From positions 1 to 45,686 of the forward strand of contig NZ_JABEQJ010000037.1 of assembly GCF_014174255.1 (NCBI RefSeq): 45,686 nt of DNA, given 5' to 3'. Origin of the DNA: Gluconacetobacter sacchari (lineage in GTDB: Bacteria; Pseudomonadota; Alphaproteobacteria; Acetobacterales; Acetobacteraceae). The notes under the pieces are model-generated. The model was not told where the DNA came from. It did no database searches and saw only the letters and a program-made list of their open reading frames with translations. A program made the translations under genes and the position numbers. This document shows, one piece after another, positions 9,728 to 33,804 of the stretch; position 1 is the first letter of the stretch, and every line of letters starts with the position of its first letter.

Positions 9728-9749
9728 AGGGCGGGGCTGCCGCCCGGGC

Positions 9750-9777
9750 CTTGTCCTGCGGCGCGAACGGCCTATTT
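9750..9777 (+). promoter_or_regulatory. predicted RpoH (heat-shock) promoter of hslVU
   Basis: CTTG at 9750-9753, a 17-base spacer and CCTATTT at 9771-9777 match the alphaproteobacterial heat-shock pattern CTTG-N17/18-CYTATNT exactly. Transcription would begin near 9784, only a few bases before the hslV ATG at 9787. No ribosome binding site is visible, so the mRNA may be nearly leaderless. Confidence 0.72.
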
Positions 9778-9786
9778 CTGTCAGCT

Positions 9787-17185: not shown

Positions 17186-19735
17186 TCAGAAATTCACGCC
17201 GACGCGGCCGTAGTAATATCCGCCGGTAAAGCCGAAGGGCGATGTGCCGGGATACTGACCCTGGCCCAGCGACGCATTGTAGAGTCCGTTGGCGGTCGGA
17301 TACTGGTTGAACAGGTTGTTCGCGCCGAACCCGACATTGACGAATCTGTTGATGTTCCAGGTAATGTCCATGTCCACGATCAGCCGCGGCCCGAAACGGC
17401 GGTCCTGCGACGCGCTGTTCTGCAAGATCGTATAGCCGCCATAGCGCGTCACCCGCGTGTTGAGCACCACGGGCCCCCACGTCCACACATTCATCAGCGA
17501 CAGTTTCGTCCGGGGGATGGCCTTGGTCAGGTAGCCCTGCGACAGGCGGTCGAACAGCACGTAGCCCGAACCGAGGGAGGCAAGCTGCGCGGGATTGGCC
17601 TTGATGTTGGAAATGACCGTCTGGTTGTAGTTCCAGCCCAGATTCCACTGCATCTGGCCGGCCGGCCCCACATCGTGGTGATAGGTCGCGACGACATCGA
17701 TGCCGCGTGTGCGGGTATTGATCGCGTTGGTGTAATATTGCGCGCTGATATCCGAAGCCAGGCCGTTCGCCACCAGGATCCGCGAGACCGCCGGCCCGGT
17801 CAGCGTGCTGGTCAGGGCGATGCGGTTGTTGACCTCGATCTGGTAGGCATCGAGGGTGATCGCCAGCGGGCGGAAGGGCTGGAGCACGAAGCCGGCGCTC
17901 ATGTTCTTCGAGGTTTCGGGGTGCAGGGGCGTGGCGCCCAGCGCCCGGGCGGCGGGCGAATTCACGGGGAGCGTCTTGATCTGCAACAGGGTCAGGTCTT
18001 CATTGACCAGACGGAACTGGCCCGTCGTCGAGGCATAGAGCTGCTGCGCCAGCGACGGGGCGCGAAAACCGTTGCTGAGCGTCCCGCGGATCGCGAGCCA
18101 TTTGGTGACGGCGTAGCGCATGGTGGCCTTGCCGATTCCCGAATTGCCGCTGGCATCGTCATAATGTTCGAACCGCCCGGCCAGGCCGATCGTCAGGGAT
18201 TTCACCGGGTCCCACGCCAGGTCGGTATAGGCGGCCATGTTGTTGCGCTGCATGAAGCCCGCGTCGGACGGCGTGAAGCCGGGGGCGCCGTTCGCGCCGG
18301 GGGCGACCAGCGCGCCGTGATTGCGATACGTACCGGCGGCATAGCTGGCCGGATCGCCCGCCTCCACCCGGTAGGTTTCCAGACGGTGCATGATGCCGAG
18401 CGAGGTTTGCAGGTTGCCCAGGATCTTCCACCCCCGCGTCACGTCGAACGTATTGACCCATTCGGTGGATTGCAGCGTGCCGACATAGAAGGACAGGGGC
18501 GATGCCGGGCCCAGGCTGGCATTCAGGGTCTGGTCGGCCGTCTGCCGGGCGCGGTCTTCGCCGAAGCTGGAACTGAGGTCCCAGTTCCAGCCCAGTTGCC
18601 TGCCCCTGAGCCCGGCCGCGAACTGGTAATCCTGTTCATGGACGACGACGCGGGGACGGAAGCCGTCGGGGAAGAATTGCGGCAGGGAATTGACGTTGTT
18701 GGGCGCGCGATAGCTGTAATTCAGGTCGGAATCGCGCAGCCCGTAGCTGCCGAACGTATAGAACGTCACCGGGCCGAAATCATATTCGCTGTTATAGCCG
18801 ACCAGCACGCCGCGCTGCGGCATCAGGCCGTAATTGGTGGTCACCAGGCGGTCGGCCGTTGCCTCGCGCGGGTCGGGCTGGCCGTTGATCTTGTTGTAGA
18901 GCTGGACGGATTTCGCGATCGGGTTCGCCCGGTTCGACGCGAGCTGCTTCTTGAGATCGATGGAAACGTTGAGAAAGCCCTGCGAACCCAGCTTGATCCC
19001 GCCATTGGTCAGCCATTGATATTGCTGCCCGTCTCCACGGTCCATATTGGCGCCGGTGGTGAAGCTCGACGAGCCGCCATTGGCCTTCTTCTTCAGGATG
19101 ATGTTGATGACGCCCGCAATGGCGTCCGACCCGTACTGCGCGGCCGCGCCGTCGCGCAGAACCTCGATATGGTCGATTTCCGACGGCGGAATCATGTCGA
19201 GGTCGGTGGGCACCGAACCGTTATAGAGCGATGAGACCGCGTTGATCAGCGACGTCTTGTGCCGGCGCTTGCCGTTGACCAGAACCAGCATCTGGTCGGG
19301 GTTGAGCCCGCGCAGGCCGCCGGTCGCGATGATGGTCGACGTGCCGCCACCGGCGCGATTGGGCGAATTGAACGACGGGACCAGCGTGTTGAGCTGGGAA
19401 ATGACGCTGGCCTTGCCGGTTTCCAGAAGCTCCTTGCTCCGGATCACGTCGATCGGGGTCGAAGAGTGCAGGGCCGTTCGCTGCACGCCACGATTGCCGG
19501 TTACGACGACGGCTTCTCCGCCATCGGCGGGGGCGGACGGCCCGGGGCGGGCTTTCGCCGAACGGATTGCCGCCGTGGCGCCGCTTTTTTTGTCCATCGT
19601 GAGCGTGGGGGAGGGCACGGACTGGCCGTATGCCGCACCATCGAGCCCCATGAGAGCCACTGCCATCGTGAGTCCCAGAGACAGGGGCGCGCGCAAGGTG
19701 GGTTCGGTATTCGACACGATGATTATCTTTCCCAT
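17186..19735 (-). CDS. TonB-dependent outer-membrane receptor
   Basis: An 849-residue TonB-dependent transporter. A signal peptide ends near AAYGQS, a TonB-box-like EAVVVTGNR follows at about 75, and the plug domain (about 80-195) includes LRGLNPDQMLVLVNGKRRH and IEVLRDGAAAQYGSDAIAGVIN. The remainder is a 22-strand-type barrel ending in an aromatic residue (GRVGVNF). It imports a large or scarce substrate across the outer membrane using TonB energy. The YGSDAIAGVINI style plug is common in receptors for carbohydrates and plant compounds as well as siderophores. ATG 19735 is chosen; an in-frame TTG at 19747 is possible. First gene of a unit with the acylase and the small exported protein; divergent from the MocR-like regulator. 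Confidence 0.93.
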   Translation of the reverse strand: MGKIIIVSNTEPTLRAPLSLGLTMAVALMGLDGAAYGQSVPSPTLTMDKKSGATAAIRSAKARPGPSAPADGGEAVVVTGNRGVQRTALHSSTPIDVIRSKELLETGKASVISQLNTLVPSFNSPNRAGGGTSTIIATGGLRGLNPDQMLVLVNGKRRHKTSLINAVSSLYNGSVPTDLDMIPPSEIDHIEVLRDGAAAQYGSDAIAGVINIILKKKANGGSSSFTTGANMDRGDGQQYQWLTNGGIKLGSQGFLNVSIDLKKQLASNRANPIAKSVQLYNKINGQPDPREATADRLVTTNYGLMPQRGVLVGYNSEYDFGPVTFYTFGSYGLRDSDLNYSYRAPNNVNSLPQFFPDGFRPRVVVHEQDYQFAAGLRGRQLGWNWDLSSSFGEDRARQTADQTLNASLGPASPLSFYVGTLQSTEWVNTFDVTRGWKILGNLQTSLGIMHRLETYRVEAGDPASYAAGTYRNHGALVAPGANGAPGFTPSDAGFMQRNNMAAYTDLAWDPVKSLTIGLAGRFEHYDDASGNSGIGKATMRYAVTKWLAIRGTLSNGFRAPSLAQQLYASTTGQFRLVNEDLTLLQIKTLPVNSPAARALGATPLHPETSKNMSAGFVLQPFRPLAITLDAYQIEVNNRIALTSTLTGPAVSRILVANGLASDISAQYYTNAINTRTRGIDVVATYHHDVGPAGQMQWNLGWNYNQTVISNIKANPAQLASLGSGYVLFDRLSQGYLTKAIPRTKLSLMNVWTWGPVVLNTRVTRYGGYTILQNSASQDRRFGPRLIVDMDITWNINRFVNVGFGANNLFNQYPTANGLYNASLGQGQYPGTSPFGFTGGYYYGRVGVNF

Positions 19736-20072
19736 TTTGTTATGCAAACGCGGAGTGATCTATTTTTTATAAGAAGATATTATTTCTTTATTTCCGGGAC
19801 GTTTTCAATTTCTCGTATCATGTTCCTGGTTATTGTTTCCATTATTCTGAAGGAACAGCCAGCAGCATGTATCGGCTGTCACATATTATTATAATATCGA
19901 AACAAGTTGGCGGGCGTCAGTGCGGGCATGGATCGGAATCCTGGCGGGATGGCGACTGGGACGGGGGACGGGGGCGGTGATCGTGTGGTGTGTAACAGGA
20001 TTAAGGCAATGCTCGACGCCGATGACAAATGATATTACGTTATTGTACATTAATTATGGAGTTTAACGAATC
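19736..20072. promoter_or_regulatory. AT-rich divergent control region (receptor / MocR-like regulator)
   Basis: No gene is seen. The sequence is much richer in A and T than its surroundings. A perfect 15-base palindrome ATATTAT-T-ATAATAT lies at 19883-19897. A TATTGTACA word at 20041-20049 recurs at 26188-26196 in the other divergent gap of the island. These may be binding sites for the regulator or AT-rich promoter elements. Confidence 0.5.
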
Positions 20073-21407
20073 TTGGAGTGGAATACGGAGTGGTTCGTGC
20101 AGCGGCTGCACGACCGGTCGGTTCGCGGGCTGGTACGGCAGCTCGCCGCGCTCGTTCAGTCGGGCGCGCTGCCGGTCGGCACGCGGCTGCCCGCGATCCG
20201 CGATCTGGCCTATGCGCTGGAGATCAGTCCGGCGACGGTGTCCATCGCGTGGGGGCAGTTGCGCCGGCGCAGCATGATCGACGGGCGCGGCCGCTCGGGC
20301 ATGTTCGTGATCGGGACCTCCATCGCGCCCCGGCCGGTCCGGCGTACGGCGAGTGTCGGGCTGGCGCACATGCCGTTCGACCTGACCTCGTACACGCCCG
20401 ACGTAACGCTGCTGCCGTCCCTTGCATCGGCTTTCGCCGCGCCCGACCGCACCCCCAACCTGAACGTCAACGACGACGAGGCCATCGTGGAGAGCCTGCG
20501 CGCCGTCTCCGCGGACTCCTGGCCGTATGACGCCGAGGATTTCATGGGGTGCGACGGTGGATATAGCGGCCTGTACGACACGCTGCATGCGCTGGTGCCG
20601 CCGGGATCCATTGTGGCCGTCGAAGACCCCACGCCGATGCGCGTTCTCGATATCCTCGACCATCTCGGCGCCTCCATTCTGCCGGTGCGCAGTGACCTCC
20701 ATGGTCCCATGCCCGACTCCCTGGAGCGCGTGGTGGCGCGGGGGGCCGTGGCGGTCTATCTGCATCCCGGACTGAACGCGGTGACGGGCCGGACCGTGCC
20801 GCGATCGCGGCTGGAAAGCCTGGCCGCGATCATGACCGCCGCGCCGTCGGCCTGGATCATCGAGGACGATCCGCTGTCGCGCTTCAATCCCTTTCCGTCG
20901 GGCAGCCTCGGGGCGTGGTGCCCCGATCGCGTCGTGCATATCCGATCGCTGTCGGCCTTTTTCGGGCCGGACCTGCGTGTCGGGATCATTTCGGCGACGG
21001 CCCGGATCATTCGCGAGATCTGCGCGTTCCGCAGTTTCGGCCCCGGTTGCCCCAGCCGCCTGTTGCAGTCCGCCGCTGCCTGGATGGCCGGCGATGCGGA
21101 AACCACCCGTATCGTCGCGCATGCGCGGCAGGTCTATGCCCAACGCCGCGCCTGTCTGGCCGAGGCGCTGGCGCGACTGGGCCATGATGCTGGTCCCGGC
21201 TGCGGTTTCAGCCTGTGGCTGCCGGTCCGCGAGCAGAAGGCGGCGCTCGCCTGCCTGGCCCATAACGGCATCCGGGTGACGGAAGGCAGCAAATGCTCGC
21301 CCTCCGGCCAGCCGCATATCCGCCTGTCCTTTTCGCATCTGGTTTCGGACCAGGAGTGGCTGGCCGGCCATCTGGTCGCCGCCGGCCTGCTGACGAAGGA
21401 AGCGTGA
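20073..21407 (+). CDS. MocR/GntR-type regulator with degenerate aminotransferase domain
   Basis: A 444-residue fusion of a GntR winged helix (residues about 12-80, GTRLPAIRDLAYALEISPATVSIAWGQL) with a fold-I aminotransferase-like domain (about 95-440). MocR regulators normally bind pyridoxal phosphate through a lysine in an S-x-S-K-x-x-x-P-x-L-R-x-G motif. Here the motif reads SLSAFFGPDLRVG, with Ala295 in place of lysine. EDDPLSRF likewise has Pro where family members have EDDY. The domain may therefore bind another ligand. The start is probably TTG 20073, with TGGAG 11 bases before it; upstream in-frame ATGs are absent. It is divergent from the receptor-acylase unit and is its likely local regulator. 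Confidence 0.85.
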   Translation: MEWNTEWFVQRLHDRSVRGLVRQLAALVQSGALPVGTRLPAIRDLAYALEISPATVSIAWGQLRRRSMIDGRGRSGMFVIGTSIAPRPVRRTASVGLAHMPFDLTSYTPDVTLLPSLASAFAAPDRTPNLNVNDDEAIVESLRAVSADSWPYDAEDFMGCDGGYSGLYDTLHALVPPGSIVAVEDPTPMRVLDILDHLGASILPVRSDLHGPMPDSLERVVARGAVAVYLHPGLNAVTGRTVPRSRLESLAAIMTAAPSAWIIEDDPLSRFNPFPSGSLGAWCPDRVVHIRSLSAFFGPDLRVGIISATARIIREICAFRSFGPGCPSRLLQSAAAWMAGDAETTRIVAHARQVYAQRRACLAEALARLGHDAGPGCGFSLWLPVREQKAALACLAHNGIRVTEGSKCSPSGQPHIRLSFSHLVSDQEWLAGHLVAAGLLTKEA

Positions 21408-21428: not shown

Positions 21429-22727
21429 CTACAGGTCGTCCAGCAACGGCTTCTGTCCTTCCCGGCCCGCAATCAGGCAGAACCCCGCGCCCAGAAGCCC
21501 GAGCGCGCAGGGCACGGCAAGGGCCGCGCCCCAGCTCGCGCCATGGCCGAGCATGCGCGAAATGAGGATCGGCATGCTGCCGGCCGCGACATTGCCCCAG
21601 AACCCGGTCCAGCCCACGACGACGCCGCTGAAACGGCGCGTCAGTCCCTGGGCGAGCGACCAGATCGCGACCTGGCACATGCCCAGGGCCGCAAGCGCCA
21701 CGCACAGCAGGGTGATGGCGGCCAGGTTGCTGTCGCAATAGGCGGCGGCCTCCAGCGACAGGGCGCTGAGCGCCGCCCCCGCCGCCCCGAAGACGGCGCG
21801 TGCCTTGAAGGGCGAGCCGCTGCGGCGCAGGATCGCATCGCTGGCGAAGCCGCTGGCCACGACCGACAGGTAGAGACAGAGCCATGGCAACGCGAAGACC
21901 CATCCCATGGCGTTGTAGGAAAGATGGCGCGCCGACATCAGATAATGCGGCAGGTTGACATGGTAGAAGGACTGCATGGACAGCGCGCAGAAATAGAAGG
22001 CGCCGATCGCCCACAGGCGCGGCGAGCACAGGAGCGTGGCGAACGCGCGGCGTGACAGGCGTGGCGGATCGTCGCGCGGGCCGCGATAGGGGCCGTCGCG
22101 ATAGACCAGCAGCCAGAGCGTGCTCAAGACAAGGCCGACCACGCCGAACATGTGCAGGCAATGCCGCCAGCCGATCAGCGTGACGGCCTGGGTTGTCAGC
22201 GGGCCGGAGAGCGTGGAGCCGAAATACAGACAGCCCAGCAGCACGGCGTTGCCGCGCGAGCGTTTCGCCGGGGCGAACCAGTCATGCACCGCCGTGACGC
22301 TGGCGCTCCAGTCCGCGGCCTGGAACGTGCCCATGGCGATGCGAAAGACGAGAAAGCTGACGAAGCCGGAGGCCCACGGCATGCCGATCGTGACCGCCGA
22401 CCACGCCATGCAGGCCCACCCCAGGGTCCGGTGCGGCCCCAGGTGGCTGACCAGCCAGCCACTGGGCAACTGCATGATCGCGTAGCTCCAGGTCAGCGCG
22501 GCGATCACGGTCGAAACCTGGACGTAGTCCAGCTTCAGGGCATTGCCGATCATGGGCGCGGCCAGCGCGAAGCTGTTCTTGTCGAGCGCCATCATGATGT
22601 TGATGGGAACGACCAGTCCCGCCATCACCAGCCACGGGCGCGTGGCGGCGCCGGCCGGATCGCCCCCCGCCATCCTGCCGCGCGCGGCGGCGCCGGGGTC
22701 CGCGGGGCAGTCCTCGGCCATCGTCAT
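21429..22727 (-). CDS. MFS transporter, anion:cation symporter type
   Basis: A 432-residue inner-membrane permease with about 12 predicted membrane segments. The first contains VPINIMMALDKNSFALAAPMIG, and the loop after segment 2 has the MFS signature GWLVSHLGPHRTLG. The pattern fits the anion:cation symporter family (phthalate, hexuronate and aromatic acid permeases). ATG 22727 is chosen because GAGGG lies upstream and the preceding in-frame stretch back to 22835 is not protein-like. Last gene of the hpaC-hpaB-cupin-DUF2848-MFS strand; it would bring an organic acid, perhaps an aromatic one, into the cell. Confidence 0.87.
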   Translation of the reverse strand: MTMAEDCPADPGAAARGRMAGGDPAGAATRPWLVMAGLVVPINIMMALDKNSFALAAPMIGNALKLDYVQVSTVIAALTWSYAIMQLPSGWLVSHLGPHRTLGWACMAWSAVTIGMPWASGFVSFLVFRIAMGTFQAADWSASVTAVHDWFAPAKRSRGNAVLLGCLYFGSTLSGPLTTQAVTLIGWRHCLHMFGVVGLVLSTLWLLVYRDGPYRGPRDDPPRLSRRAFATLLCSPRLWAIGAFYFCALSMQSFYHVNLPHYLMSARHLSYNAMGWVFALPWLCLYLSVVASGFASDAILRRSGSPFKARAVFGAAGAALSALSLEAAAYCDSNLAAITLLCVALAALGMCQVAIWSLAQGLTRRFSGVVVGWTGFWGNVAAGSMPILISRMLGHGASWGAALAVPCALGLLGAGFCLIAGREGQKPLLDDL

Positions 22728-22940
22728 CGCATCGATATCCCTCTTCAGCCGGCCCCGTTGCAGCCCCGTTCCATTCTTGCCGGTCGAGAGCGGTTTGAAA
22801 ATGGGCTTCGGTGCTGTCGGCTGCATTCCGCTCACCGCGCGCAGGCGCCGAGGCGGCCGGCCGGTTCCGGCATGGAGGGCTCTGCCGGGCGATATGCGGC
22901 GCGCGCCTGATATCGACGCGCGGGCGGGTCAGGCCACGTG

Positions 22941-23621
22941 TCAGGCCACGACGGGAAGCGCGCGGACGGTATAGGAATGGGAGATCGTGCGGCCCAGGAC
23001 CGGGTCGTGCAGTTCCATCGCGAAATATCCCGACGGCCGGATGCCGCCGCGGACGGGGACCGTGCCGCAGAGCATGGCGGAGCCCGGAGCGAAATCCAGC
23101 GTCGCGGGCAGGCCGGACAGGAGGTCCGTCGGCCGCTTCAGCAGGGCGACGCTGCCTTCCTGATACAGGACGCGCTGCCCACCCTCGTCAATCCACGCGC
23201 GCAGTACGAGCTTGTCCCAATGGTCTCGCACATCCTCCCAATGCCACAAGCACGTGGCCAACGGCTTGGCGCAAAGCTGCTTCGACAGCGCGATGCCCAC
23301 GGTTTCGGCCTTTCGGTCGGTATGGTCGGATGCCAGGCCAATCCATAACCCGTCCGCCATCGCCACCAGAAGCGGTTCCACTTCGCCCGACGTGTCCGGC
23401 CCGAGGACGTCGACATGGTCGTCCTGACTCAGCAATGCGTTCGCCACCCGATAATAGACGGGCACCGACGACGGGCGCGGAACGCCGATCGCCTCGAGCT
23501 CCTGGATATGGTGCTCGATGGCGGCGGCGTCGCGCCCCGCCCAGCCGGCGACCACAAGGCGTTCGATATCCATCCCGACCACGTCCGATCGGCCGTTCCG
23601 CGCGCGCGTGAATTTCAACAT
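22941..23621 (-). CDS. DUF2848 family protein
   Basis: A 226-residue cytoplasmic protein. Conserved blocks that I associate with DUF2848 are visible: VVAGWAGRDAAAIEHHIQEL, SDHTDRKAE, SKQLCAKP, HWDKLVLRAW and MLCGTVPVRGG. The C-terminal block resembles the fumarylacetoacetate hydrolase fold (GT-x-x-x-x-G), which would suggest a hydrolase or decarboxylase acting on a ring-cleavage product; this is a guess. ATG 23621 follows AGGAAT. An 11-base direct repeat (GTCAGGCCACG at 22928-22938 and 22940-22950) straddles the stop codon. The gene sits between the cupin and MFS genes in one operon. Confidence 0.78.
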   Translation of the reverse strand: MLKFTRARNGRSDVVGMDIERLVVAGWAGRDAAAIEHHIQELEAIGVPRPSSVPVYYRVANALLSQDDHVDVLGPDTSGEVEPLLVAMADGLWIGLASDHTDRKAETVGIALSKQLCAKPLATCLWHWEDVRDHWDKLVLRAWIDEGGQRVLYQEGSVALLKRPTDLLSGLPATLDFAPGSAMLCGTVPVRGGIRPSGYFAMELHDPVLGRTISHSYTVRALPVVA

Positions 23622-23653
23622 GCCATATTCCTGATTACTGTATGGAAATATTT

Positions 23654-24034
23654 CTATGCCGGGTCGTAATAGTGAATTTCCAGAAGAAGGCACCCTCGTT
23701 CCGACTTGAAGGGACCATGGACGGCGCCGGGCGGGCGGCAGGCATATGTGTTTGGCGGGAAAGGTTCGCCCCCGTGCCCGTTTTCGTCGTTGCCGACCGT
23801 CAGGTCCCCGGAGATCAGATAGACTTCCTCCCAATAATCATGCACGAACGGCCGCTTGGTATAGACGCCCGGGGCGAAACGCAGCAGCCTTGTCCGGCTG
23901 CCCGTCCTGGCGACTTCGTCCAAGCTGCCGGACAGGATCTTTTCCTGTACATCTTCCTTGTACGCCGCCGGCTGTACCCAGCCTGCGTCCATATCCAGCG
24001 TATGGAATTCCTTGTGTTCCTTGGTGACGGCCAT
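23654..24034 (-). CDS. ChrR-like cupin domain protein
   Basis: A 126-residue single-domain cupin. Motif 1 reads RPFVHDYWEEVYLISGDL: one His and the Glu are kept, but the usual His-x-His is His-x-Tyr. Motif 2 is YACRPPGAVHGPF with the conserved His. It could bind a metal and act as a dioxygenase or isomerase, or serve as a non-catalytic sensor domain. It lies 27 bases after the monooxygenase gene and 32 bases before the DUF2848 gene, implying a step in the same pathway. Confidence 0.8.
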   Translation of the reverse strand: MAVTKEHKEFHTLDMDAGWVQPAAYKEDVQEKILSGSLDEVARTGSRTRLLRFAPGVYTKRPFVHDYWEEVYLISGDLTVGNDENGHGGEPFPPNTYACRPPGAVHGPFKSERGCLLLEIHYYDPA

Positions 24035-24061: not shown

Positions 24062-25495
24062 TCAGTAGGAGGCCAGCATGCGATCGACGACGCCGGTCGC
24101 CCGATCCCAGTCGAACGTCCTGAACGAGTGGTTTTTGGGAACGAAGCTGGCGCCGGCGTAGAACATCTCGTACTGGGTGTGGCGCGACGCGAATTCCGAT
24201 CCGATGCAGTCCCATGCCAGTTTGAAGAATTTGACGCGATCGGCGGCGTCCATGACGGGCGATGCCTGACTTCTGGAAATCCATTTCATTATTTCAGGAT
24301 TTTCCATATCCTCCACCGACGACGGCAGCATGATGACGCCGCCGCCGGACAGCGTGCGCAACTGTTCGATGAAGCGCGGGTACAGCGTCTGCGTAATGGC
24401 CTGCGCGGCGTAGAGGCTGTGTCGATCCGGGATGAAATAGGGCCCGTAATGGCTGCCCTTCACCTCCATTCCCGCGACCATGGCATCCAACATGCCGACA
24501 TCAGCCGCGAGCTGACCGAGAATTTCCCGGACCTGCGGGAAGCGCTCGGTCCCGTTAACCTGCGCGATCTTGCGTCCGAGGCCGACGAGGAAGGTCAGCT
24601 TCGTCTTGAGGCGGATCATCGCCTGATAATTCTGATAAACATGGGCCGGCGTCGCAAAGAACTGCTTCGCACAGAGCGCCCTGTCATTGTGAACGAATAC
24701 GCGCTCCCACGGCACGGTCACGTTTTCAAAAACCAGGACGGCGTCGTTCTCGTCGAACCGGCTGGCCATCGGGCTGTCGAACACGCAACCGGCATGCTCC
24801 TCGTAGGACTTCCGCGACAGGATACGCAATCCGGTCGCGTTCATCGGCAGAACCGCGGAGAACGCCAGCGCTTCCTCGCCCGGTGCCAGCGGCTGGATAC
24901 AGGTCACCAGGACCTCGTTGGCCATGACGCCTCCGCTGGCCAGCATCTTCGCGCCGTCGATGACGATGCCGGACGGACCCTGATCGACCACCGACGCCGC
25001 GATCCGCCGGGGCGACGGGCTGTCCGGATCGGCCAGCTCGCCCTGCGGATTGATGATGACATAGGTCAGGAACAGATCCGCCTCGCTGGCGTGGCGATAG
25101 TAATCGGCCAACGCCCCGGCGCGGGCCGTATCGGCCTCGGCGAAGACATCCAGCCCCATATACATGCCGGCAATGCACGACGCCACATGATCCGGCGAGC
25201 GGCCGAAAAAGCCGGCATGCTGCATACCCCAGAATTCGAGCGCCTTGCGTCGCTCGACCAGGTCCGCATGGCTGCGCGGCAACTGCCAGATGCGATTGAT
25301 CGGTACGCCGCCCTCGTTCAGGCATGTCATCAGGTCGCGGTTCCGCTCGTCCCACGCGGTATCGTACAGGGTACAAACCGTATCGATCGAGCGGCGGAAC
25401 GCCTGATGTTCCGTCACGTCGGAGACGAGGCCACCGTTGATATAGACCGAACGCCCATCGCGGAGGCTCTCCCTATGTTGCCGGCCAGTCTTCAT
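24062..25495 (-). CDS. HpaB-family FADH2-dependent monooxygenase
   Basis: A 477-residue protein of the 4-hydroxyphenylacetate 3-monooxygenase oxygenase family (acyl-CoA dehydrogenase fold; relatives include PvcC and chlorophenol monooxygenases). The N-terminal YINGGLVSDVTEH and AFRRSIDTVCTLYD, the central LTYVIINPQGE, the VTVPWERVFV segment and the C-terminal HTQYEMFYAG region fit the family. It would hydroxylate a phenolic ring using O2 and reduced FAD supplied by the flavin reductase encoded 99 bases upstream. ATG 25495 follows GGGGAGAGGG. The true substrate cannot be told from sequence, so I give no symbol. Confidence 0.88.
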   Translation of the reverse strand: MKTGRQHRESLRDGRSVYINGGLVSDVTEHQAFRRSIDTVCTLYDTAWDERNRDLMTCLNEGGVPINRIWQLPRSHADLVERRKALEFWGMQHAGFFGRSPDHVASCIAGMYMGLDVFAEADTARAGALADYYRHASEADLFLTYVIINPQGELADPDSPSPRRIAASVVDQGPSGIVIDGAKMLASGGVMANEVLVTCIQPLAPGEEALAFSAVLPMNATGLRILSRKSYEEHAGCVFDSPMASRFDENDAVLVFENVTVPWERVFVHNDRALCAKQFFATPAHVYQNYQAMIRLKTKLTFLVGLGRKIAQVNGTERFPQVREILGQLAADVGMLDAMVAGMEVKGSHYGPYFIPDRHSLYAAQAITQTLYPRFIEQLRTLSGGGVIMLPSSVEDMENPEIMKWISRSQASPVMDAADRVKFFKLAWDCIGSEFASRHTQYEMFYAGASFVPKNHSFRTFDWDRATGVVDRMLASY

Positions 25496-25594
25496 GATTT
25501 CCCTCTCCCCTGGTACAGACCGCGACCGGGCGGAGCCCGATCGGCTATGCATAACGTGCTGAAAAACAGATTGCAGTGAAACGCGGGCAGGATT

Positions 25595-26071
25595 CTATTC
25601 GAGAAGTTTCCTGTATTCGCTTGAAAAAAATAGAAGAGGCTTTCGTCCCTCATTGAAGGCCGCATCGGTGACGCGCACGACGAACAGGGCATGGTCACCC
25701 ACTTCCTGCGTCATGAAGGGTTCGCAATGCAGAGCGGCCAGCGCGCCGGCCAGGCGCGCGACGCCGCTCTCCATCATGGAGTCCAGGGCGGCCTGCCGCA
25801 CCGAGGCGTCGGACGGACGCCCGAACAGGTCGGACAGTTCCCGATGATCCTCGGCCAGGACGTTGATCACGAACACGCGGCATTCACGAAATTTGACTCC
25901 TGCATAACCATTTTTTTTCACGCTGAAGACAACGAGGGGTGGATCGAGCGACACGGTGTTGAACGATGTGGCCGTGAGCGCGGTCCGCTCTCCCTGATCG
26001 TCGGTCCCGACAATGACGGTGACTCCCGTCGCGAACTGCCCGAACACCTTCCTGAAATGCTTCGAATCCAT
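25595..26071 (-). CDS. HpaC-like flavin reductase
   Basis: A 158-residue flavin reductase of the HpaC/DIM6-NTAB type. FRKVFGQFATGVTVIVG at the start, TALTATSFNTVSLDPPLVVFSV (FMN/FAD site) and the GDHALFVVRV segment are characteristic. It reduces free flavin with NAD(P)H and passes it to the monooxygenase encoded downstream. The gene contains a T8 run on the + strand (25908-25915) but its frame is intact. It is the first gene of the catabolic operon. A TTGACA promoter overlapped by a 19-base palindrome lies just upstream, so it is probably repressed until an inducer appears. Confidence 0.9.
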   Translation of the reverse strand: MDSKHFRKVFGQFATGVTVIVGTDDQGERTALTATSFNTVSLDPPLVVFSVKKNGYAGVKFRECRVFVINVLAEDHRELSDLFGRPSDASVRQAALDSMMESGVARLAGALAALHCEPFMTQEVGDHALFVVRVTDAAFNEGRKPLLFFSSEYRKLLE

Positions 26072-26098
26072 GGCCGTGTCGCGTGTCCATTATGTTGA

Positions 26099-26134
26099 TA
26101 GCTTTCTTTAAAAGCTAAATTGGCGACGTGTCAA
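26099..26134 (-). promoter_or_regulatory. promoter and operator 1 of the monooxygenase operon
   Basis: On the minus strand a perfect TTGACA (26129-26134) is followed after 16 bases by TTTAAA (26107-26112). The -10 lies inside the palindrome TAGCTTT-N5-AAAGCTA (26099-26117). Transcription would begin near 26100, about 29 bases before the flavin reductase ATG. A repressor on this palindrome would block RNA polymerase. Confidence 0.62.
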
Positions 26135-26236
26135 CGAAAATGTGGCGGTACTGGAACGAATGGACTGAAGCCGGTTTCCTTGAATCATATTGTACAAAAA
26201 CATTATTTTTTTCATTCCTTATCCGTATTATTTCAG

Positions 26237-26297
26237 TTGACAAACGCACGGCGCTGCGCCTCATAATGCCGACCATGGTAGCTTTCTTTGAAAGGTA
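26237..26297 (+). promoter_or_regulatory. promoter and operator 2, facing the second receptor operon
   Basis: A perfect TTGACA (26237-26242) is followed by CATAAT (26262-26267) with a long 19-base spacer. Just after the expected start point lies TAGCTTTCTTTGAAAGGTA (26279-26297), which differs from operator 1 at only two of 19 positions. The two copies lie 180 bases apart. The nearest convincing downstream gene starts at 26768, so the leader would be nearly 500 bases. Confidence 0.5.
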
Positions 26298-26767
26298 TTT
26301 TATGGGCGCCCAGGGCTTGTCCATCAGCCGTCTTGCAGGGCGGAGGCTCGTGCTTTCCACGGCTTTCGTCATCGATGGCGGTCGCCCGGCCCGCATTCGT
26401 ATCGATGTCGCGACCGCGCGGGCATGGACGTCCGTCAGAGGCGGTATCTTGAACGATTGCCGCCACCGCCAAGCCGAATACGCTTCGATCAAGGCCCCGC
26501 GAGCAATTCGAAACCTCTCCATGCGCCATCGGCGCGCGGGAGGGAGATTCCGGCCCTTCGGAAAAACGATGCGGACAGAAAAATTATTACAAACAAAAGA
26601 GAAAACTACGTCACGTAATCATACGAATAAAACGACCAAATATGTAATATATGAAAAATCGAACGAGTGATTCGGCCGAGAATATCATCGACCATTTAGA
26701 ATGATCCGAGTTGATTCAATAATGAATGCCAGGCGCGATCCTCTCGACACCGGAAGGGCCCACAATA
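26298..26767. other. long leader / intergenic region without a convincing gene
   Basis: The first 270 bases are GC-rich and the rest AT-rich. A frame from ATG 26302 to 26670 follows AAAGG but encodes an Arg-rich, then Lys/Thr-rich sequence with no recognisable family, so I do not call it. An 11-base palindrome TACGT-C-ACGTA lies at 26607-26617. The GC-rich part may be a remnant of a lost gene or a structured leader. Confidence 0.4.
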
Positions 26768-29191
26768 ATGTCCTACTACTCTCGACGTATCAGCAAGCTG
26801 TGTCTTCTCTCGACGTCGGCACTTTTCCTGCTGAATCCTTATGCGGGGAATGCGCGTCCCGTCGACAAGGCCGTGGCGTCCGGTCACAAGGTCGGACAGA
26901 AGACCGTACCGTCATCCACGCGCAGGAACCCGGTGCCGGACGCGGAGGAAGTGACCGTCTCCGGATTTTCCCGCACCGTCAAGGGCGGGGGTGGTGTGCT
27001 CATTACGAATGCGCCCAAGAATATCGAGGGCGTATCCCGGGACTATATTTCCCGACAAAGCGGGGCGTCCACCGCGGTTGATCTGATCAAGTACCAGCCC
27101 AGCCTCAACAGTTCGACGACCGATTCATCGGGCATGATTGGCGGGCAGTTGATCAGCCGGGGGCTTTCGGACGCCGACATGGCCATCACGGTCGATGGGG
27201 TCGCACCCAATTCCGGGGCCGGGCATGCCACGCAGAATTTCGAAACCGAGGATACACAGAGCGTTCAATACACGCCCGGTCCCGTCGACCTGGCCCTGCC
27301 GATTACCAGCGCGGCGATCGGCGGCCTGGAGCAGTCGCCGATCATGCCGGCGTCGAAAGCCGGCGGTTTTACGGACTTTTCATATGGGACGAACAATTTG
27401 AGCCGCGAGTATATCCGGCTCGAATCCGGGGAGATCGGCAACTCCGGCATCAAGGCCTTCTATTCCATGTCGCATTCCCACGCGCGCAACTGGCAGGGCG
27501 CCGGCACGGGGAATCGCATCCATATGGATTTCGGCGCCTATATCCCCGTTGGGCGTTCTTCATTCCTGCGTCCCCTGGTGTCATGGAACTACCAGAGCCC
27601 GGTGGCCGTTCCAAAGCAGCCCACCGCAACCCAGTTCCATGACGACAAGAACGGCAGGGCGGGCGGCGACAGCTACCATCTTACGTCGTTCTACGATCCG
27701 TCCAACCCGGGCCTGTATTATGCCACCAATCAATATCGGTATAATCAGATCCAGGCCGATATGCCCGTTCATCTGAACATCACGTCGCTGCTTGATATCG
27801 ATATCAAACCCTATCTGGCGTATCAGAGCGGGCATTGGAACATGGGCGGGGGGGCGTTCATCGGACCGACCGGCACGGTCGGCGGCCAGTCCGTTCCGCT
27901 GAGTGTCGGACCGGCCGGGCCGATCCTGACCTCGCCCGTTCCTGGAAGCAGTACCTGGAATAACAGCGGCCCCAAGGGCGGCGTCGTTGCCGAGACGACC
28001 TGGCATGTCGCGCGCAATGCACATGTCAATGTCGGGTACTGGTATGAGCAGTACCACGATAATCAGCGCTGGGTGGATTCCGTGCTCAACGCGGACGGCT
28101 CGGTCCCCAATCCCGACAATCTGGCGCGGGCCCTGTTTGTACGGACCGGCGACGTATCCTATAAATATACATTCAATATCACGCATGCGGCGAGCGTCAT
28201 CAATGCGTTCTTCGTGCAGGGCCGATGGTCCGGCCTGGAAAACAGGCTGAACATCGAAGGCGGCGTGAAGGTCGTCCATGAAACACTCGGCAACGACCAG
28301 GTTTCGAACGGAACGTCCACGACGCAAAGCATCACGTCGCCGATCCCGCAGATTCTCATGTCCTACAAGATCGATCGGAACGATCAGGTCTATGTGAATG
28401 GTTCTGGAAACTTTCGACTTCCGGACCCCGGCAGCCTGGCGAAATTCTATGACGCCAGTACGGGCACCTATGTCGGGACGCAGTCCAATCTGAAACCGGA
28501 ATATGTTATCTCCGAGGCGGTCGGATTCAGGCATAACGGGAAATATATCTATGCGAACGTTGAATTTTTCAATTACTCCATAACGAATCGTTTGATTTCC
28601 ACCAATGTGAGCATTGGCGGGACGGCTGTGCCCGCGACCATCAACGGCGGCAACCAGACATCTCGCGGCGTGGATGTGACCCTGTCCGGGCGACGGGTAT
28701 ATGGCTTTACGCCCTATGTGAGTTTCGAATATCTGCATGCTACGGAGGATTCAAACATCCAGACGACCGCCATTGACGGTTCCCCGGACTATCTGCGGAC
28801 CAAGGGCAAGCGTGCTGTTCAGGCGCCGCGTTATACGGCCAATTTCGGCTTGAACTATGACGATGGCGTCTTCTTTGGCGATCTCGGGCTTCATTATAAC
28901 AGCTCCCAGTATGCCTCGTTCATGAATGACGAGAAAATGCCGGGTTACTTTACCGACTCGCTGGGAATTGGCGTCAGGTTCAAGAATTTTCAATATTTCA
29001 AGGCGCCCGTGTTTAAGTTGAACCTGAATAATATCACCGGATCTTTTCTGAGGACCGGCGTTGCCAGTGTCATTAACAATGCCCGCCAGACGGTGGGGGT
29101 GAATGGAAATTTGATAGCGTCGTCCGGTGCCGCGACTTACTATCTTTACCCGAGATTCAATATTACGGGCACCATCTCGACCGCTTTCTGA
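26768..29191 (+). CDS. TonB-dependent outer-membrane receptor
   Basis: An 807-residue transporter. The signal peptide covers about residues 1-30 (LCLLSTSALFLLNPYAGNA). A TonB-box-like EEVTVSGF lies at about 62, then a plug with STAVDLIKYQPSLNS, GGQLISRGLSDADMAITVDG and VDLALPITSAAIGG. The long beta barrel ends in YPRFNITGTISTAF with a terminal Phe. The plug is unlike that of the other receptor in this window, so the two probably carry different molecules. ATG 26768 follows GGAAGGG and starts directly at the signal peptide; an in-frame ATG at 26726 lacks a ribosome binding site. It lies 24 bases before the esterase gene, implying import of that enzyme's substrate or product. Confidence 0.9.
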   Translation: MSYYSRRISKLCLLSTSALFLLNPYAGNARPVDKAVASGHKVGQKTVPSSTRRNPVPDAEEVTVSGFSRTVKGGGGVLITNAPKNIEGVSRDYISRQSGASTAVDLIKYQPSLNSSTTDSSGMIGGQLISRGLSDADMAITVDGVAPNSGAGHATQNFETEDTQSVQYTPGPVDLALPITSAAIGGLEQSPIMPASKAGGFTDFSYGTNNLSREYIRLESGEIGNSGIKAFYSMSHSHARNWQGAGTGNRIHMDFGAYIPVGRSSFLRPLVSWNYQSPVAVPKQPTATQFHDDKNGRAGGDSYHLTSFYDPSNPGLYYATNQYRYNQIQADMPVHLNITSLLDIDIKPYLAYQSGHWNMGGGAFIGPTGTVGGQSVPLSVGPAGPILTSPVPGSSTWNNSGPKGGVVAETTWHVARNAHVNVGYWYEQYHDNQRWVDSVLNADGSVPNPDNLARALFVRTGDVSYKYTFNITHAASVINAFFVQGRWSGLENRLNIEGGVKVVHETLGNDQVSNGTSTTQSITSPIPQILMSYKIDRNDQVYVNGSGNFRLPDPGSLAKFYDASTGTYVGTQSNLKPEYVISEAVGFRHNGKYIYANVEFFNYSITNRLISTNVSIGGTAVPATINGGNQTSRGVDVTLSGRRVYGFTPYVSFEYLHATEDSNIQTTAIDGSPDYLRTKGKRAVQAPRYTANFGLNYDDGVFFGDLGLHYNSSQYASFMNDEKMPGYFTDSLGIGVRFKNFQYFKAPVFKLNLNNITGSFLRTGVASVINNARQTVGVNGNLIASSGAATYYLYPRFNITGTISTAF

Positions 29192-29215: not shown

Positions 29216-31030
29216 ATGCTGAGGTATTTTTTCATACTGTCTCTGACCGTTTCGGTATCGGGGTATGCGTTCGCGGGTGAGACCGCAGGAAAAACCCCGT
29301 CGTTCCAAGGCAGGTGCTCGGCATTCGTTGGCCGGCATGCGGCGGGTGGTTTCGATTACACCGTCACAAAGGCGTATTTCGGCGGCAGGAACGCGGCAAT
29401 CAATGTGCGTCCCGCCACGGATGTCGGCGCGACCGGAACGGCCGCGGCGATTCCGGTCACGCGCGATATGTGCCTGCTTAAAATAACGATCGGTCCCGGC
29501 GCGAACAATGGTCCGAACGAGCCGTCCACCTCTCGGGGAATCGGCCTGGAGGTGTGGGTGCCGTCGCCGGCCGACTGGAACCAGCGTTACCTTGGGGTGG
29601 GGGAAGGTGGCTATGCCGGCCTGCCGGACGTTCAGGATACGAACGCTCTGAGTGTCATCGGTCAATCGGCGCTGCGCGCCGGCGAAGACGGCTTCCTGAC
29701 CGTCAACTCGGATGACGGGCACTCGGCCGGCGGTGGCAGTGACGGGAGTTTCGCGTTTCGCCCGAACGGAAAGCTGAACTGGCCGCTTCTCGAGGACTGG
29801 GCGTATCGCAGCCTCCATATGATGGTGCTGGCCGCGCACGATATCGCGCGGAACTTTTACGGACGTGAACCGAAATTTTCCTACTGGAGCGGAGGGTCGA
29901 CCGGTGGCCGCGAGGGCCTTATGCTCGCGCAACGTTATCCCCATGACTATAACGGTATCATTAGCGCCTATCCGGCGATAAACTGGCCCAGCTTCGTGCC
30001 GTCCATTATGTGGCCACAGGTGGTCATGAACCGTGATCTCGGGCATCCGATATCGCCGGGGAAGCTCGAACTGGTAACACAGCGCGCGATTGCGGCGTGC
30101 GATACCTTCATTGCCGGCAGGCATGATGGTTACATCAGTGATTTGGCGTCCTGCCACTATGATCCGGTAGGCGACACCGGACTTCTCTGCCCGGAATCGA
30201 AGGGTGGCAGCGATTCATGTCTGACGAAGGGCGAGGCCGTCGCCGTCGACAAGATCTGGTATGGACCGACGATCGACGGGAAGGCGATTTCTCCCGGGTC
30301 GGATAACGGGTTCGAGCCTTCGCTCAGTCTCGGTCATCTATGGTACGGATATAACCGGGGCGTGGTCCTGTATAATTCGCCGCTGACCTATGGAGTCGGA
30401 CCCGCCGGCGTCACGCCCTTCACCATCGGCGCGCATTGGCTGGCGATTGCCGCCGGCGATCCGGCATTGGCCGACAGATCGCTGAAAAGCGGCTCCGTCC
30501 TGGCGCGCGATGGCTGGAAGACTCTGGGCTATTCGGGCGATAAATCGTTTTCGAGCGTCTTTATCCGGTCGTTGCAGCAATTCGGGTCGATGAACGGAAC
30601 GGATAGCGTCGACCTGAGGGAGTTCTACAAGGCGGGTGGCAAGATCATTCATTGGCACGGCCTGGCCGACAATCAGATTCCGGTGGGCGGATCGGTTAAT
30701 TATTACGAGCGTGTCGCGGACGCCTTTGGCGGATTCGACAATATCCAAGGCTGGTATCGCTTTTTCCTGGCGCCGGGCCTGGGGCATGGGCGCACCGGGG
30801 CTGCCGGGCTGCATCCTCCGGTGCCGGGCGGGAATGCGAATGACGGGTTTGGCATCAACTATGCCATTCTTCCGGCTCTTGAGCGGTGGACCGAGGCTGG
30901 TGTCGCGCCTGCCGTGATCCATGTCTCGAGAAAAGACGATGCCGAAGGGGAACGTTTCTGGTGTCCTTACCCCGCGCAACTGACGGTTGGCGGCGCGAAA
31001 ACGGCCTTCACCTGCTCAGTCGGCCGGTGA
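29216..31030 (+). CDS. tannase/feruloyl esterase family hydrolase lacking the CS-D-HC disulfide
   Basis: A 604-residue exported alpha/beta hydrolase; signal peptide about 1-20 (cut after YAFA). The catalytic triad is readable: Ser228 in WSGGSTGGREG, Asp485 in HGLADNQIP and His524 in APGLGHGRTG. In the tannase/feruloyl esterase family the residue before Ser and the one after His are cysteines joined by a disulfide. Here both are glycine (227 and 525). The fold and triad still support ester cleavage, for example of aromatic acid esters, in the periplasm or outside. GGAGAGG precedes the ATG. It is cotranscribed with the receptor 24 bases upstream. Confidence 0.88.
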   Translation: MLRYFFILSLTVSVSGYAFAGETAGKTPSFQGRCSAFVGRHAAGGFDYTVTKAYFGGRNAAINVRPATDVGATGTAAAIPVTRDMCLLKITIGPGANNGPNEPSTSRGIGLEVWVPSPADWNQRYLGVGEGGYAGLPDVQDTNALSVIGQSALRAGEDGFLTVNSDDGHSAGGGSDGSFAFRPNGKLNWPLLEDWAYRSLHMMVLAAHDIARNFYGREPKFSYWSGGSTGGREGLMLAQRYPHDYNGIISAYPAINWPSFVPSIMWPQVVMNRDLGHPISPGKLELVTQRAIAACDTFIAGRHDGYISDLASCHYDPVGDTGLLCPESKGGSDSCLTKGEAVAVDKIWYGPTIDGKAISPGSDNGFEPSLSLGHLWYGYNRGVVLYNSPLTYGVGPAGVTPFTIGAHWLAIAAGDPALADRSLKSGSVLARDGWKTLGYSGDKSFSSVFIRSLQQFGSMNGTDSVDLREFYKAGGKIIHWHGLADNQIPVGGSVNYYERVADAFGGFDNIQGWYRFFLAPGLGHGRTGAAGLHPPVPGGNANDGFGINYAILPALERWTEAGVAPAVIHVSRKDDAEGERFWCPYPAQLTVGGAKTAFTCSVGR

Positions 31031-31186
31031 GACACCATATCGTCTGCCATGACGGCAATCATGACGGCGATCGTTGCCCCGCCGCGGCGCGGCGGGCAGG
31101 GGAGATCGGATGAAATCGTGCCTGGGGCAGCCCTGGGGCGCTCCTGGCGCATCCGAAGCGGAAACAGGATGGAGGACAATCGAGCC

Positions 31187-32551
31187 GTGACGCAAATGCC
31201 CCCGCAGACGATTCATTCCGCTGCCCAGGCGCTGGCGGAAGGGCGGACGACCAGCCGCGCACTGGTCGAGGACGCGCTGGCCCGTATTGCCGATCCGGAC
31301 GGCGAAGGCGCGCGAACGTTCATGGGCGTGCATGCGCGCACCGCGCGCGCCCGGGCCGATCATATGGATGCCTTGCGGAAAAACGGCCATGCGCCGTCCG
31401 CGTTCGCCGGGCTGCCGATGTCGGTCAAGGACCTGTTCGACGAGGCTGGAGCCGTCACGCGCGCGGGTTCGCGCGTGCTGGATGGCGCGGCGCCCGCCGT
31501 CAGCGACGCACCCGCTCTCGCGCGGCTGAATGCGGCGGGCATGATCTCCATCGGCCGGACCACGATGACGGAGTTCGCGTTTTCCGGCGTGGGGATCAAC
31601 CCCCATTATGGGACCCCCGCCAATCCTTGGCGACGGTCCGAGAGGCGCGTGCCCGGTGGTTCCTCATCCGGGGCGGCCATATCGGTCACCGATGGAATGG
31701 CCTTCGTCGGTATCGGCACCGATACGGGAGGATCGTGTCGTATTCCCGCCGCCCTGACCGGGCTGGTCGGCTTCAAGCCGACCGCATCGCGTATTCCCCG
31801 CACCGGCATGGTCCCGCTGTCGTCAACGCTCGATTCGGTCGGCAGCATAGCGCGCAGCGTCGCCTGTTGCTGGACGGTCGACAGCCTGATGGCCGGTGGC
31901 GGCGCGCGTCTCCAGGATGCGCCGAGTGGTATGCTCGGGGCGTCGCCGAGGCTGGGTGTGCTGAGTACGTACGTTCTGGATGGGATGGACGAGACGGTCG
32001 GGCGTACATGGGAGGCATGTCTGAGCCGTCTCGCGGCTGGAGGGGTGTCTCTTGCCGATGTCGCCTGCCCTGCGTTGAACGATCTCGCGGAGGCCAACAG
32101 CAAGGGCGGCTTTCCTGCGCCCGAGGCGCTGGCCTGGCATTCGCCACTCTTACGGACCCGTCACGCTGAATACGATCCGTTCGTCCTGCGTCGAATATTG
32201 CGCGGCCAGGAACAGAGTGCCGTCGACTACATCACTCTCATGGAGACGCGGGCGCGTATCATGCGGCGGGCCGGGGACTGCCTGGATCAGTATGATGCAG
32301 TCATCATGCCGACGGTTCCGATCGTGGCGCCTCGCCAGGACGCATTGACCGATGACGGTGTCTATGCGGCGACCAATTTGAAGTTGCTGCGCAATTCGAC
32401 GGTTGTCAATTTCCTCGACCGCTGCGCCATCACGATTCCGTGTCATAGCCCGGGCGAAGCGCCCGTCGGCCTCATGCTGATGGGGCGCCATCATGAAGAC
32501 GCGGCCCTTCTGCAGATCGCAGCGCAAGTCGAACGTGCCCTTGCATCCTGA
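31187..32551 (+). CDS. amidase signature family hydrolase
   Basis: A 454-residue cytoplasmic amidase. The Ser-cisSer-Lys triad is visible: Lys81 in PMSVKDLFD, the Ser cluster 159-161 in VPGGSSSGAA and the nucleophile Ser183 in GTDTGGSCRIPAALTG. Members hydrolyse amides or transfer ammonia in tRNA amidation; the lack of gatB/gatC neighbours and the context argue for a catabolic amidase. GTG 31187 is preferred, with GGAGG at 31171-31175; ATG 31169 and ATG 31196 are alternatives. It lies downstream of the esterase on the same strand after a 156-base gap and is convergent with the MarR gene. Confidence 0.88.
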   Translation: MTQMPPQTIHSAAQALAEGRTTSRALVEDALARIADPDGEGARTFMGVHARTARARADHMDALRKNGHAPSAFAGLPMSVKDLFDEAGAVTRAGSRVLDGAAPAVSDAPALARLNAAGMISIGRTTMTEFAFSGVGINPHYGTPANPWRRSERRVPGGSSSGAAISVTDGMAFVGIGTDTGGSCRIPAALTGLVGFKPTASRIPRTGMVPLSSTLDSVGSIARSVACCWTVDSLMAGGGARLQDAPSGMLGASPRLGVLSTYVLDGMDETVGRTWEACLSRLAAGGVSLADVACPALNDLAEANSKGGFPAPEALAWHSPLLRTRHAEYDPFVLRRILRGQEQSAVDYITLMETRARIMRRAGDCLDQYDAVIMPTVPIVAPRQDALTDDGVYAATNLKLLRNSTVVNFLDRCAITIPCHSPGEAPVGLMLMGRHHEDAALLQIAAQVERALAS

Positions 32552-32614: not shown

Positions 32615-33190
32615 TTATTCGCTCAAAAAATCCATGAGCGTCAGTGATGCCTGTGCCCCCGATATCAACTGCGACATGGTACGGGCCAGTTCGATCATCT
32701 GGTCGCGGGAGATATCGCGGAATATCGTATCGTTTACCGGCACCTGTACCTCCGCCAGGCGGGCGAGCAATTCCCTGGCCTTGGGAGTCACCGACAGGAT
32801 CACGCGCCGACGGTCCTTTGCGTTGGGGACCTTCATGACCAGACCCGATGCGGTCAACTTGTTGACCGCGATCGTTACAAACGCGCCGCTGAGGTTGAGA
32901 TGCTCGGCGAGTTGCGCGATGCCGATGCCATCACTTTCCATGTGAGCGATCGAGATCAGTGCCGTGTATTGCGTGCCGCTCAGGCCGATATGACGGCCCA
33001 GTCGCTCCCGGTTCGCCTGAATCAGGGTTGAAAATGCCAGCAATCGATGCAGCATCTCACGAAAAAGGCGATCGGAGCCGTTCACCGTGAGTTCAGAACG
33101 CGACACCGTCAGCGGCGATGTGGGACGATCGGACTTCATCTCGATAATATCGCTGACAGCATTCAGTGTTTGATTTCTGATTTTCTTCAT
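32615..33190 (-). CDS. MarR family transcriptional regulator
   Basis: A 191-residue MarR protein. The winged helix-turn-helix spans about residues 85-150, with IAQLAEHLNLSGAFVTIAVN as the recognition region and the wing NAKDRRRVILSVT. The flanking helices form the dimer interface. The N-terminal 40 residues are an unusual extension. MarR proteins often sense phenolic or aromatic acids and repress the genes for their breakdown, binding palindromes of 16-20 bases. The twin 19-base palindromes at 26099 and 26279 are natural candidate targets, but this pairing is inferred. It sits at the right end of the island, next to an IS remnant. Confidence 0.92.
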   Translation of the reverse strand: MKKIRNQTLNAVSDIIEMKSDRPTSPLTVSRSELTVNGSDRLFREMLHRLLAFSTLIQANRERLGRHIGLSGTQYTALISIAHMESDGIGIAQLAEHLNLSGAFVTIAVNKLTASGLVMKVPNAKDRRRVILSVTPKARELLARLAEVQVPVNDTIFRDISRDQMIELARTMSQLISGAQASLTLMDFLSE

Positions 33191-33252: not shown

Positions 33253-33804
33253 TTATGGATTACGCTTTTGATTTTCATAATCATGCCGTATCCTGAAGCT
33301 CGCCTTATGTTGATCTGTCCACGATGACTGGCCTGTTGTAGTAGTTGATTCGTGCCTCCGATGCCAGCCTGAGCAAGACGAGAGTTCCTCATCCATCGTG
33401 CGCGCCAGGCGCCACGACAGCGCCCTGCGCGTCGCCCAGTCCATGATCGCCACGAGGTAGAGAAAGCCCCGCCTCGTGGGAAGATGCGCGATGTCGGCAC
33501 ACCAGACCTGGTTGGGCCGGTCGATGACCAGATCCCGCAGCAGATACAGATATTGCCGATGCTTCGGACGGGGCGCACTCTTGCACGGCTTCTGGTAGAT
33601 CGCCCGCAGCCCCATCATCGCCATGAGTCGGTGAACCCGCTTGCGGCCAGGCACAGTTCGCCATTCTCTTCGGTGACCGCTTCGCACGCACCACCGTCTG
33701 ATCAACAACGTGAGCAACGCATCGCACACGAAATTCCTGACAGTCCCCTGCTCCGTGCTATTGAGCACGCATGTGAGATTTGGACCTGACCCGCAGATCA
33801 CCAT
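33253..33804 (-). pseudogene. truncated IS3-family transposase (OrfB remnant)
   Basis: The middle of this frame is a clear IS3-family DDE integrase: KRVHRLMAMMGLRAIYQKP, then RPNQVWCADIAHLPTRRGFLYLV and AIMDWATRRALSWRLARTMD. Only the first catalytic Asp (in WCADI) survives; the region with the second Asp and the Glu is gone, replaced after TMDEE by unrelated sequence. The N-terminal part before KRVHRLM also does not align well, suggesting a frameshift or second break. No orfA and no convincing terminal repeats were found. It is a dead insertion-sequence fragment marking the edge of the island. Confidence 0.82.

Follow-up and report, generated by a model that had tools for sequence, protein, structure and literature searches.

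Gene content of the locus

The window (the whole 45,686-nucleotide stretch of Gluconacetobacter sacchari DNA that was analysed) contains two divergent gene arms, each presumably an operon, and two candidate operators in the spacer between them (Table 1). The leftward arm starts with a gene for an HpaC-like flavin reductase, followed by those for an HpaB-type monooxygenase, a DUF2848 protein and a transporter. The rightward arm encodes a TonB-dependent receptor, a tannase/feruloyl esterase family protein and an amidase. The HpaB and flavin reductase proteins stay under the curated HpaB/HpaC equivalog cut-offs; therefore, the substrate of the pathway need not be 4-hydroxyphenylacetate.

Two genes for potential regulators flank these arms. 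The protein encoded beyond the rightward arm contains a MarR winged helix-turn-helix domain, with both Pfam profiles above their cut-offs, and from the MarR fold we take the sequence HLNLSGAFVT to be its recognition helix region. Beyond the leftward arm lies the gene for a MocR-like protein, in which a GntR part is joined to an aminotransferase part.

An integrase-core (rve) frame at 33253-33804 adjoins marR, which suggests that the remnant of an insertion element marks the right edge of the island. Elsewhere in the window there is a second leftward receptor pair, consisting of a TonB-dependent receptor (17186-19747) and a penicillin amidase family protein (15005-17125). Proteins with LUD/4Fe-4S and cysteine-rich domains are encoded at 35503-37661; they resemble the products of a lactate utilisation operon.

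Table 1. Genes and candidate regulatory features of the two divergent arms, in coordinates of the window.
Feature	Position	Strand	Evidence and remarks
MocR-like GntR/aminotransferase protein	20073-21407		
MFS transporter	21429-22835	-	Pfam MFS_1
DUF2848 protein	22941-23834	-	Pfam DUF2848, 261.2 bits; start codon uncertain
HpaB-type flavin monooxygenase, oxygenase component	24062-25552	-	Pfam HpaB_N and HpaB; under NCBIfam HpaB equivalog cut-offs
Flavin reductase (HpaC-like)	25595-26071	-	Pfam Flavin_Reduct, 122.7 bits; first gene of the left operon
Operator 1 (candidate)	26098-26118 (core 19-mer 26099-26117)	none	ATAGCTTTCTTTAAAAGCTAA; over the expected -10 of the leftward flavin reductase promoter
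TTGACA, -35-like, leftward promoter	26129-26134	-	11 bases from operator 1
TTGACA, -35-like, rightward promoter	26237-26242	+	36 bases from operator 2
Operator 2 (candidate)	26278-26298 (core 19-mer 26279-26297)	none	GTAGCTTTCTTTGAAAGGTAT; just downstream of the expected rightward start
TonB-dependent receptor	26726-29191 (alternative ATG at 26768)	+	Pfam TonB_dep_Rec_b-barrel and Plug; first gene of the right operon
Tannase/feruloyl esterase family protein	29216-31030	+	Pfam Tannase, 254.7 bits
Amidase	31049-32551	+	Pfam Amidase; NCBIfam NF005460, 613.9 bits (cut-off 447)
MarR-family regulator, proposed repressor	32615-33190	-	Pfam MarR_2, 41.2 bits (cut-off 27); MarR, 34.5 bits (cut-off 24.6)

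Twin palindromes and promoter geometry

A sequence-only reading of this DNA had drawn attention to twin 19-base palindromes at the two divergent promoters. Both are present where that reading had placed them, the left copy being TAGCTTTCTTTAAAAGCTA and the right copy TAGCTTTCTTTGAAAGGTA, and they differ, as it had said, at two positions (12 and 17). Its description of them as near-palindromes is also accurate: each consists of 8-base arms around a 3-base centre, with one mismatched pair. As the mismatched pairs fall at different positions in the two copies, the pooled consensus is the perfect palindrome TAGCTTTC-NNN-GAAAGCTA, and each copy is one mismatch away from it.

The palindrome is rare at a strict threshold. 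In 100 dinucleotide shuffles of the window, no match with up to three mismatches was obtained. In the 4.83 Mb genome, the twin sites are the sole matches to the 16-position consensus at two mismatches or fewer, with none for the reversed control. At three mismatches or fewer there are 3 places for the consensus and 11 for the reversed control, so a scan of the own genome with this consensus discriminates at the tight threshold only. The contigs 12, 30 and 54 of genome G064 and contig 117 of G139 carry identical CAGCTTTC-N3-GAAAGCTG palindromes, three in the former genome and one in the latter; perhaps these are a repeated element unconnected with the twin-site operator.

A perfect TTGACA had been claimed for each site, and this holds: one faces left, towards the flavin reductase gene, and the other right. 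The -10 boxes are poor, and a consensus promoter scan reports neither the leftward nor the rightward promoter. Placement of the palindromes at or just past the -10 thus holds when distances are counted from TTGACA, which puts operator 1 at roughly -18 to +1 and operator 2 at roughly +7 to +25, but no -10 box can be recognised by consensus; because these boxes are unconvincing, the position of the sites relative to the -10 is given by the TTGACA distance. A long leader (26303-26725), about 430 bases or, with the later ATG, 470, separates operator 2 from the TonB receptor gene; it does not clearly resemble the shorter one in the related locus L182.

The candidate operator in related genomes

Relatives of the island were gathered by three routes. 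Searches with the flavin reductase yielded 74 loci. Searches with the MarR protein covered the family (150 genomes in one search, 397 in another) and 385 genomes of the class. Further loci came from plasmids, and 53 wider stretches around MarR matches were taken (13, 20 and 20). After a gene filter, 57 loci were left, from which three close kin of the window (L182, L183 and L033) and 13 near-duplicates were removed to give a set of 41. In the genus of the window, MarR (E ≤ 1e-15) and HpaB (E ≤ 1e-80) are found in the same 3 of 14 genomes, making the island patchy at this level; one of the three, G388, is apparently the genome that carries the Nguyenibacter vanlangensis locus L033, as the contig number and coordinates of the MarR match are the same. 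Annotated plasmid loci contain a recurrent set of flavin reductase, HpaB, cupin or DUF4437, amidase, DUF2848, branched-chain amino acid ABC transporter and MarR genes; the organism of one plasmid record with this set is marked as unverified.

All 6-base half-sites with gaps of 0 to 12 bases (13 × 4096 patterns) were enumerated without bias in the regions that precede the marR, flavin reductase and hpaB genes of the 41 loci. The top pattern was ATAGCT-N9, present in 11 loci with at most one mismatch, and the second was TAGCTT-N7, present in nine and tied with the GC-rich CGGCGC-N5. ATAGCT-N9 and TAGCTT-N7 are one site, ATAGCTT-N7-AAGCTAT (21 bp with the outer pair), which is a better form of the operator than the 19-mer. 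Operators 1 and 2 of the window differ from it at one and two of the 14 positions, respectively.

At three mismatches or fewer, the site is present in 16 of the 41 loci, while 400 permuted half-sites gave a mean of 0.54 and a maximum of 11; at two or fewer, these values are 10 of 41, 0.035 and 3. By gene, 10 of 41 marR genes, 7 of 16 flavin reductase genes and 3 of 31 hpaB genes have the site upstream, compared with 7 of 837 other open reading frames. Single sites serve both marR and flavin reductase in L127 and L129, and G053 and G015 have one exact 14/14 match apiece, in the marR locus. Conservation of the palindrome in relatives had been set in advance as one point on which the proposal could fall; it is conserved, upstream of flavin reductase/hpaB or marR genes, in other genera, in other families and in betaproteobacteria. 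Four loci of one genus (L132, L189, L192 and L196) show another kind of tandem arrangement, in which a pair of operator-like sites precedes hpaB at a spacing of 77-78 bases.

The site is not universal. In 25 of the 41 loci, no match at three mismatches or fewer was found ahead of any of the three genes. These 25 include L128 and L185, whose MarR proteins share the helix core and are encoded near hpaB. In L184, the MarR protein (9303-9899) is 66% identical to that of the window and has a similar recognition helix, HIHLSGAFVT; no flavin reductase or hpaB match lies within the 20 kb of this locus, and there is no site close by.

These data bear on the reading that the twin sites are chance palindromes or duplicated sequence with no regulatory role. 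Palindromes as such are common, as the upstream regions of the relatives yield 336 to 437 gapped ones for each gap length, and loose genome scans yield noise. With the 14-position pattern derived from the relatives, the own genome has 4 places at two mismatches or fewer and the reversed control 10, the two extra places lying within a long open frame and among uncertain short frames, respectively. Across 18 genomes scanned at three mismatches, the reversed control was commoner in 10 and equal in 1. Against this reading stand the empty window shuffles, the lack of a third genomic match to the 16-position consensus at two mismatches or fewer, and the retention of the site across genera at the same genes, and we consider it extremely improbable.

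Candidate regulators of the twin sites

The sequence-only reading had named the MarR protein as the simplest candidate for binding the sites, and the distribution of regulators favours it. Genes for MarR and MocR were searched for across the loci. Among 26 operator-bearing loci (the 16 positives of the 41 plus 10 added ones, so not independent, since the added loci include L182, L033 and near-duplicates), a MarR orthologue was found for every one: 22 in the locus itself and four (L033-L036) elsewhere in the genome. In three of these four, the coordinates fit a position 10-12 kb downstream of the flavin reductase gene on the same contig. As MarR was the query for most loci, this co-occurrence is partly ascertained; for the operator-bearing loci found through the flavin reductase (L033-L036 and L083), MarR is nonetheless present in five of five genomes, independently of the MarR query. 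A MocR-like match occurs in one of the 26, and it is weak (27% identity). MarR orthologues, rather than the MocR-like protein, thus travel with the site, which supports MarR as the likely regulator; we judged the MocR-like protein a less probable one.

The recognition helix gives a further indication. Loci with MarR proteins of the helix class LSGAF have the operator in 13 of 20 cases and the others in 3 of 20 (Fisher p 0.003), for a class picked post hoc from the alignment and with kinship ignored. This count includes 40 of the 41 loci, and the class rule omitted L083, which has the operator, and L184, which has none, both with the helix HIHLSGAFVT.

The inverted repeats are present and conserved at promoters, and their tie to MarR is drawn from co-occurrence. 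The sites could be real but read by another regulator, either the MocR-like protein or one encoded elsewhere, with MarR merely accompanying the genes. The presence of the MocR-like gene within the window would fit such an arrangement, as would L140, where MocR finds a weak match and a GntR gene lies close, and so would the window's own marR, which has no operator upstream. The near-absence of MocR from the operator-bearing loci argues against it, and so does the presence of the operator upstream of marR in about a quarter of the 41 loci. These include L136, in which a perfect 14/14 operator starts 42 bases before the extrapolated MarR start in a 20 kb locus without any hpaB or flavin reductase match. 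We regard another regulator as unlikely. MarR remains the preferred reader of the sites; given the lack of a site upstream of its own gene, autoregulation by the twin-site operator is not seen in the window, while it is likely elsewhere.

Conserved twin layout and proposed mechanism

The divergent layout with two sites, each with its TTGACA, recurs in L182 (genome G376) and L033 (Nguyenibacter), both congeners, and in L083 (Komagataeibacter intermedius), so that operators 1 and 2 both have counterparts in all three. As L182 and L033 are near-identical in the spacer, these amount, with the window, to three independent lines and not four. The distance between operator starts is 180 bases in the window, 175 in L182 and L033, and 176 in L083. 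On the flavin reductase side, the gap between TTGACA and operator is 11 bases in the window and 9 in the three others; on the opposite side it is 36 in the window and L083, and 34 in L182 and L033. When the window was aligned by blastn with the spacers of L182, L033 and L083, mainly the operators aligned and little else. The flavin reductase operators of two more loci have a TTGAC motif close by, 11 bases away in L140 and 10 in L034. For 16 operators, hand-picked at one per locus, TTGAC occurs within 60 bases on a side in 5, compared with 247 of 4800 random places.

The right-hand genes of L083 differ from those of the window. According to Pfam, they start with an OprB-family porin and include two permeases of the branched-chain amino acid type and two ABC ATPases, instead of the TonB receptor. 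The left-hand genes of L083 end with those for a cupin-like protein, DUF2848 and MarR.

The sites are rare, they are conserved together with the promoter geometry, and they co-occur with the MarR lineage, including at marR genes elsewhere. We think it probable, on these sequence comparisons, that the twin 19-mers are operators for a homodimer of the MarR protein, which would repress both arms and be released by a compound of the pathway. Without inducer, one MarR dimer would sit on the -10 region of the promoter for the flavin reductase, hpaB, DUF2848 and MFS transporter genes, and a second at the start of the TonB receptor, tannase and amidase transcript, keeping both arms shut. A dimer at either position is expected to block RNA polymerase, and for this reason we read the system as MarR repression of both arms that a ligand would relieve; direct binding, and repression rather than activation, are inferred. 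The pathway compound, probably an aromatic substrate or an early catabolite, would free MarR from the DNA, and uptake, ester cleavage and hydroxylation would then be induced jointly.

The spacing of the sites invites a different reading, in which MarR binds both as an activator or cooperatively, for instance by forming a DNA loop, and the pair is the functional unit. It is near-constant in four genomes (two of them near-identical) whose spacers are otherwise dissimilar, and some MarR proteins do activate, according to the available text of PMC4737184. However, by TTGACA distance the sites lie on the -10 region or close after the start, as in simple blocking, and a phased loop would have to accommodate spacings of 180 and 175 bp, which are about half a helical turn apart. 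Looping between the twin sites is not favoured on this account, and activation or cooperative binding by the pair seems quite unlikely to us.

Beyond simple repression of the two arms by MarR, a broader picture can be drawn, which is possible but doubtful. In it, a so far undescribed MarR regulon, spread horizontally over alpha- and betaproteobacteria, would control an aromatic pathway of flavin reductase, HpaB, DUF2848 and amidase. Acetic acid bacteria would have kept the operator pair and its spacing, with the pair acting cooperatively, and would have swapped the uptake genes, an OprB porin and ABC importer taking the place of the TonB receptor and esterase.

Comparison with known systems

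Among the matches listed in a literature search, there was no paper on this operator, on the gene cluster, or on DUF2848 with or without MarR, and the accessible parts of a paper on SlyA offered no site for comparison. The pairing of the MarR lineage with ATAGCTT-N7-AAGCTAT appears to be uncharacterised, while the type of switch is itself ordinary and the mechanism conventional. In several proteobacterial orders, this MarR lineage accompanies one and the same catabolic gene cluster, and the site provides it with a concrete candidate operator. The site makes the regulon, the inducer and the pathway directly testable, and the operator/MarR pair could become a sensor part.

The auxin degradation repressor IadR/MarR_73 of Variovorax (PMC9613470) is, as far as the available text goes, similar in being a MarR repressor at a plant-aromatic catabolic locus that is released by its substrate. 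Sequence similarity is weak, at 29.4 bits to PDB entry 7kfo, and the terms 'flavin', 'hydroxyphenylacetate' and 'amidase' are absent from the main text of that paper. An auxin (iac/iad) locus was set aside for this weak similarity and the absence of the enzyme names from the main text of the auxin-degradation papers.

As a MarR protein tied to a 4-hydroxyphenylacetate pathway, with a pair of sites at the hpaG1 promoter of Yersinia, HpaR resembles the system proposed here; hpaBC of E. coli W is under the activator HpaA (excerpts of PMC7180172). The window MarR scores 29.5 bits with the HpaR profile (TIGR02337), for which the cut-off is 121.2, and the HpaR site given in those excerpts, TTAA-N4-TTAA, is not found in the twin sites, which follow ATAGCTT-N7-AAGCTAT.

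CouR of Rhodococcus jostii RHA1 represses hydroxycinnamate catabolism; its box, cATTGA-N5-TCAATg, covers the -35, and a single copy acts on two divergent promoters (PMC4737184, in the text available). CouR-like regulators have hydroxycinnamoyl-CoA as their effector. Both systems would employ a MarR dimer and one type of inverted-repeat box at several aromatic catabolic promoters, divergent ones included, and in both the -35 is of the TTGACA type and the boxes would overlap elements of the promoter. Unlike in the CouR arrangement, each promoter described here has its own site, located at the -10 or the start, and the enzymes differ; the window operator does not match the CouR box, as the half-site is different. 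Going by the accessible portions of these papers, CouR and HpaR are the closest described systems in their logic, with operators that are different from ATAGCTT-N7-AAGCTAT.
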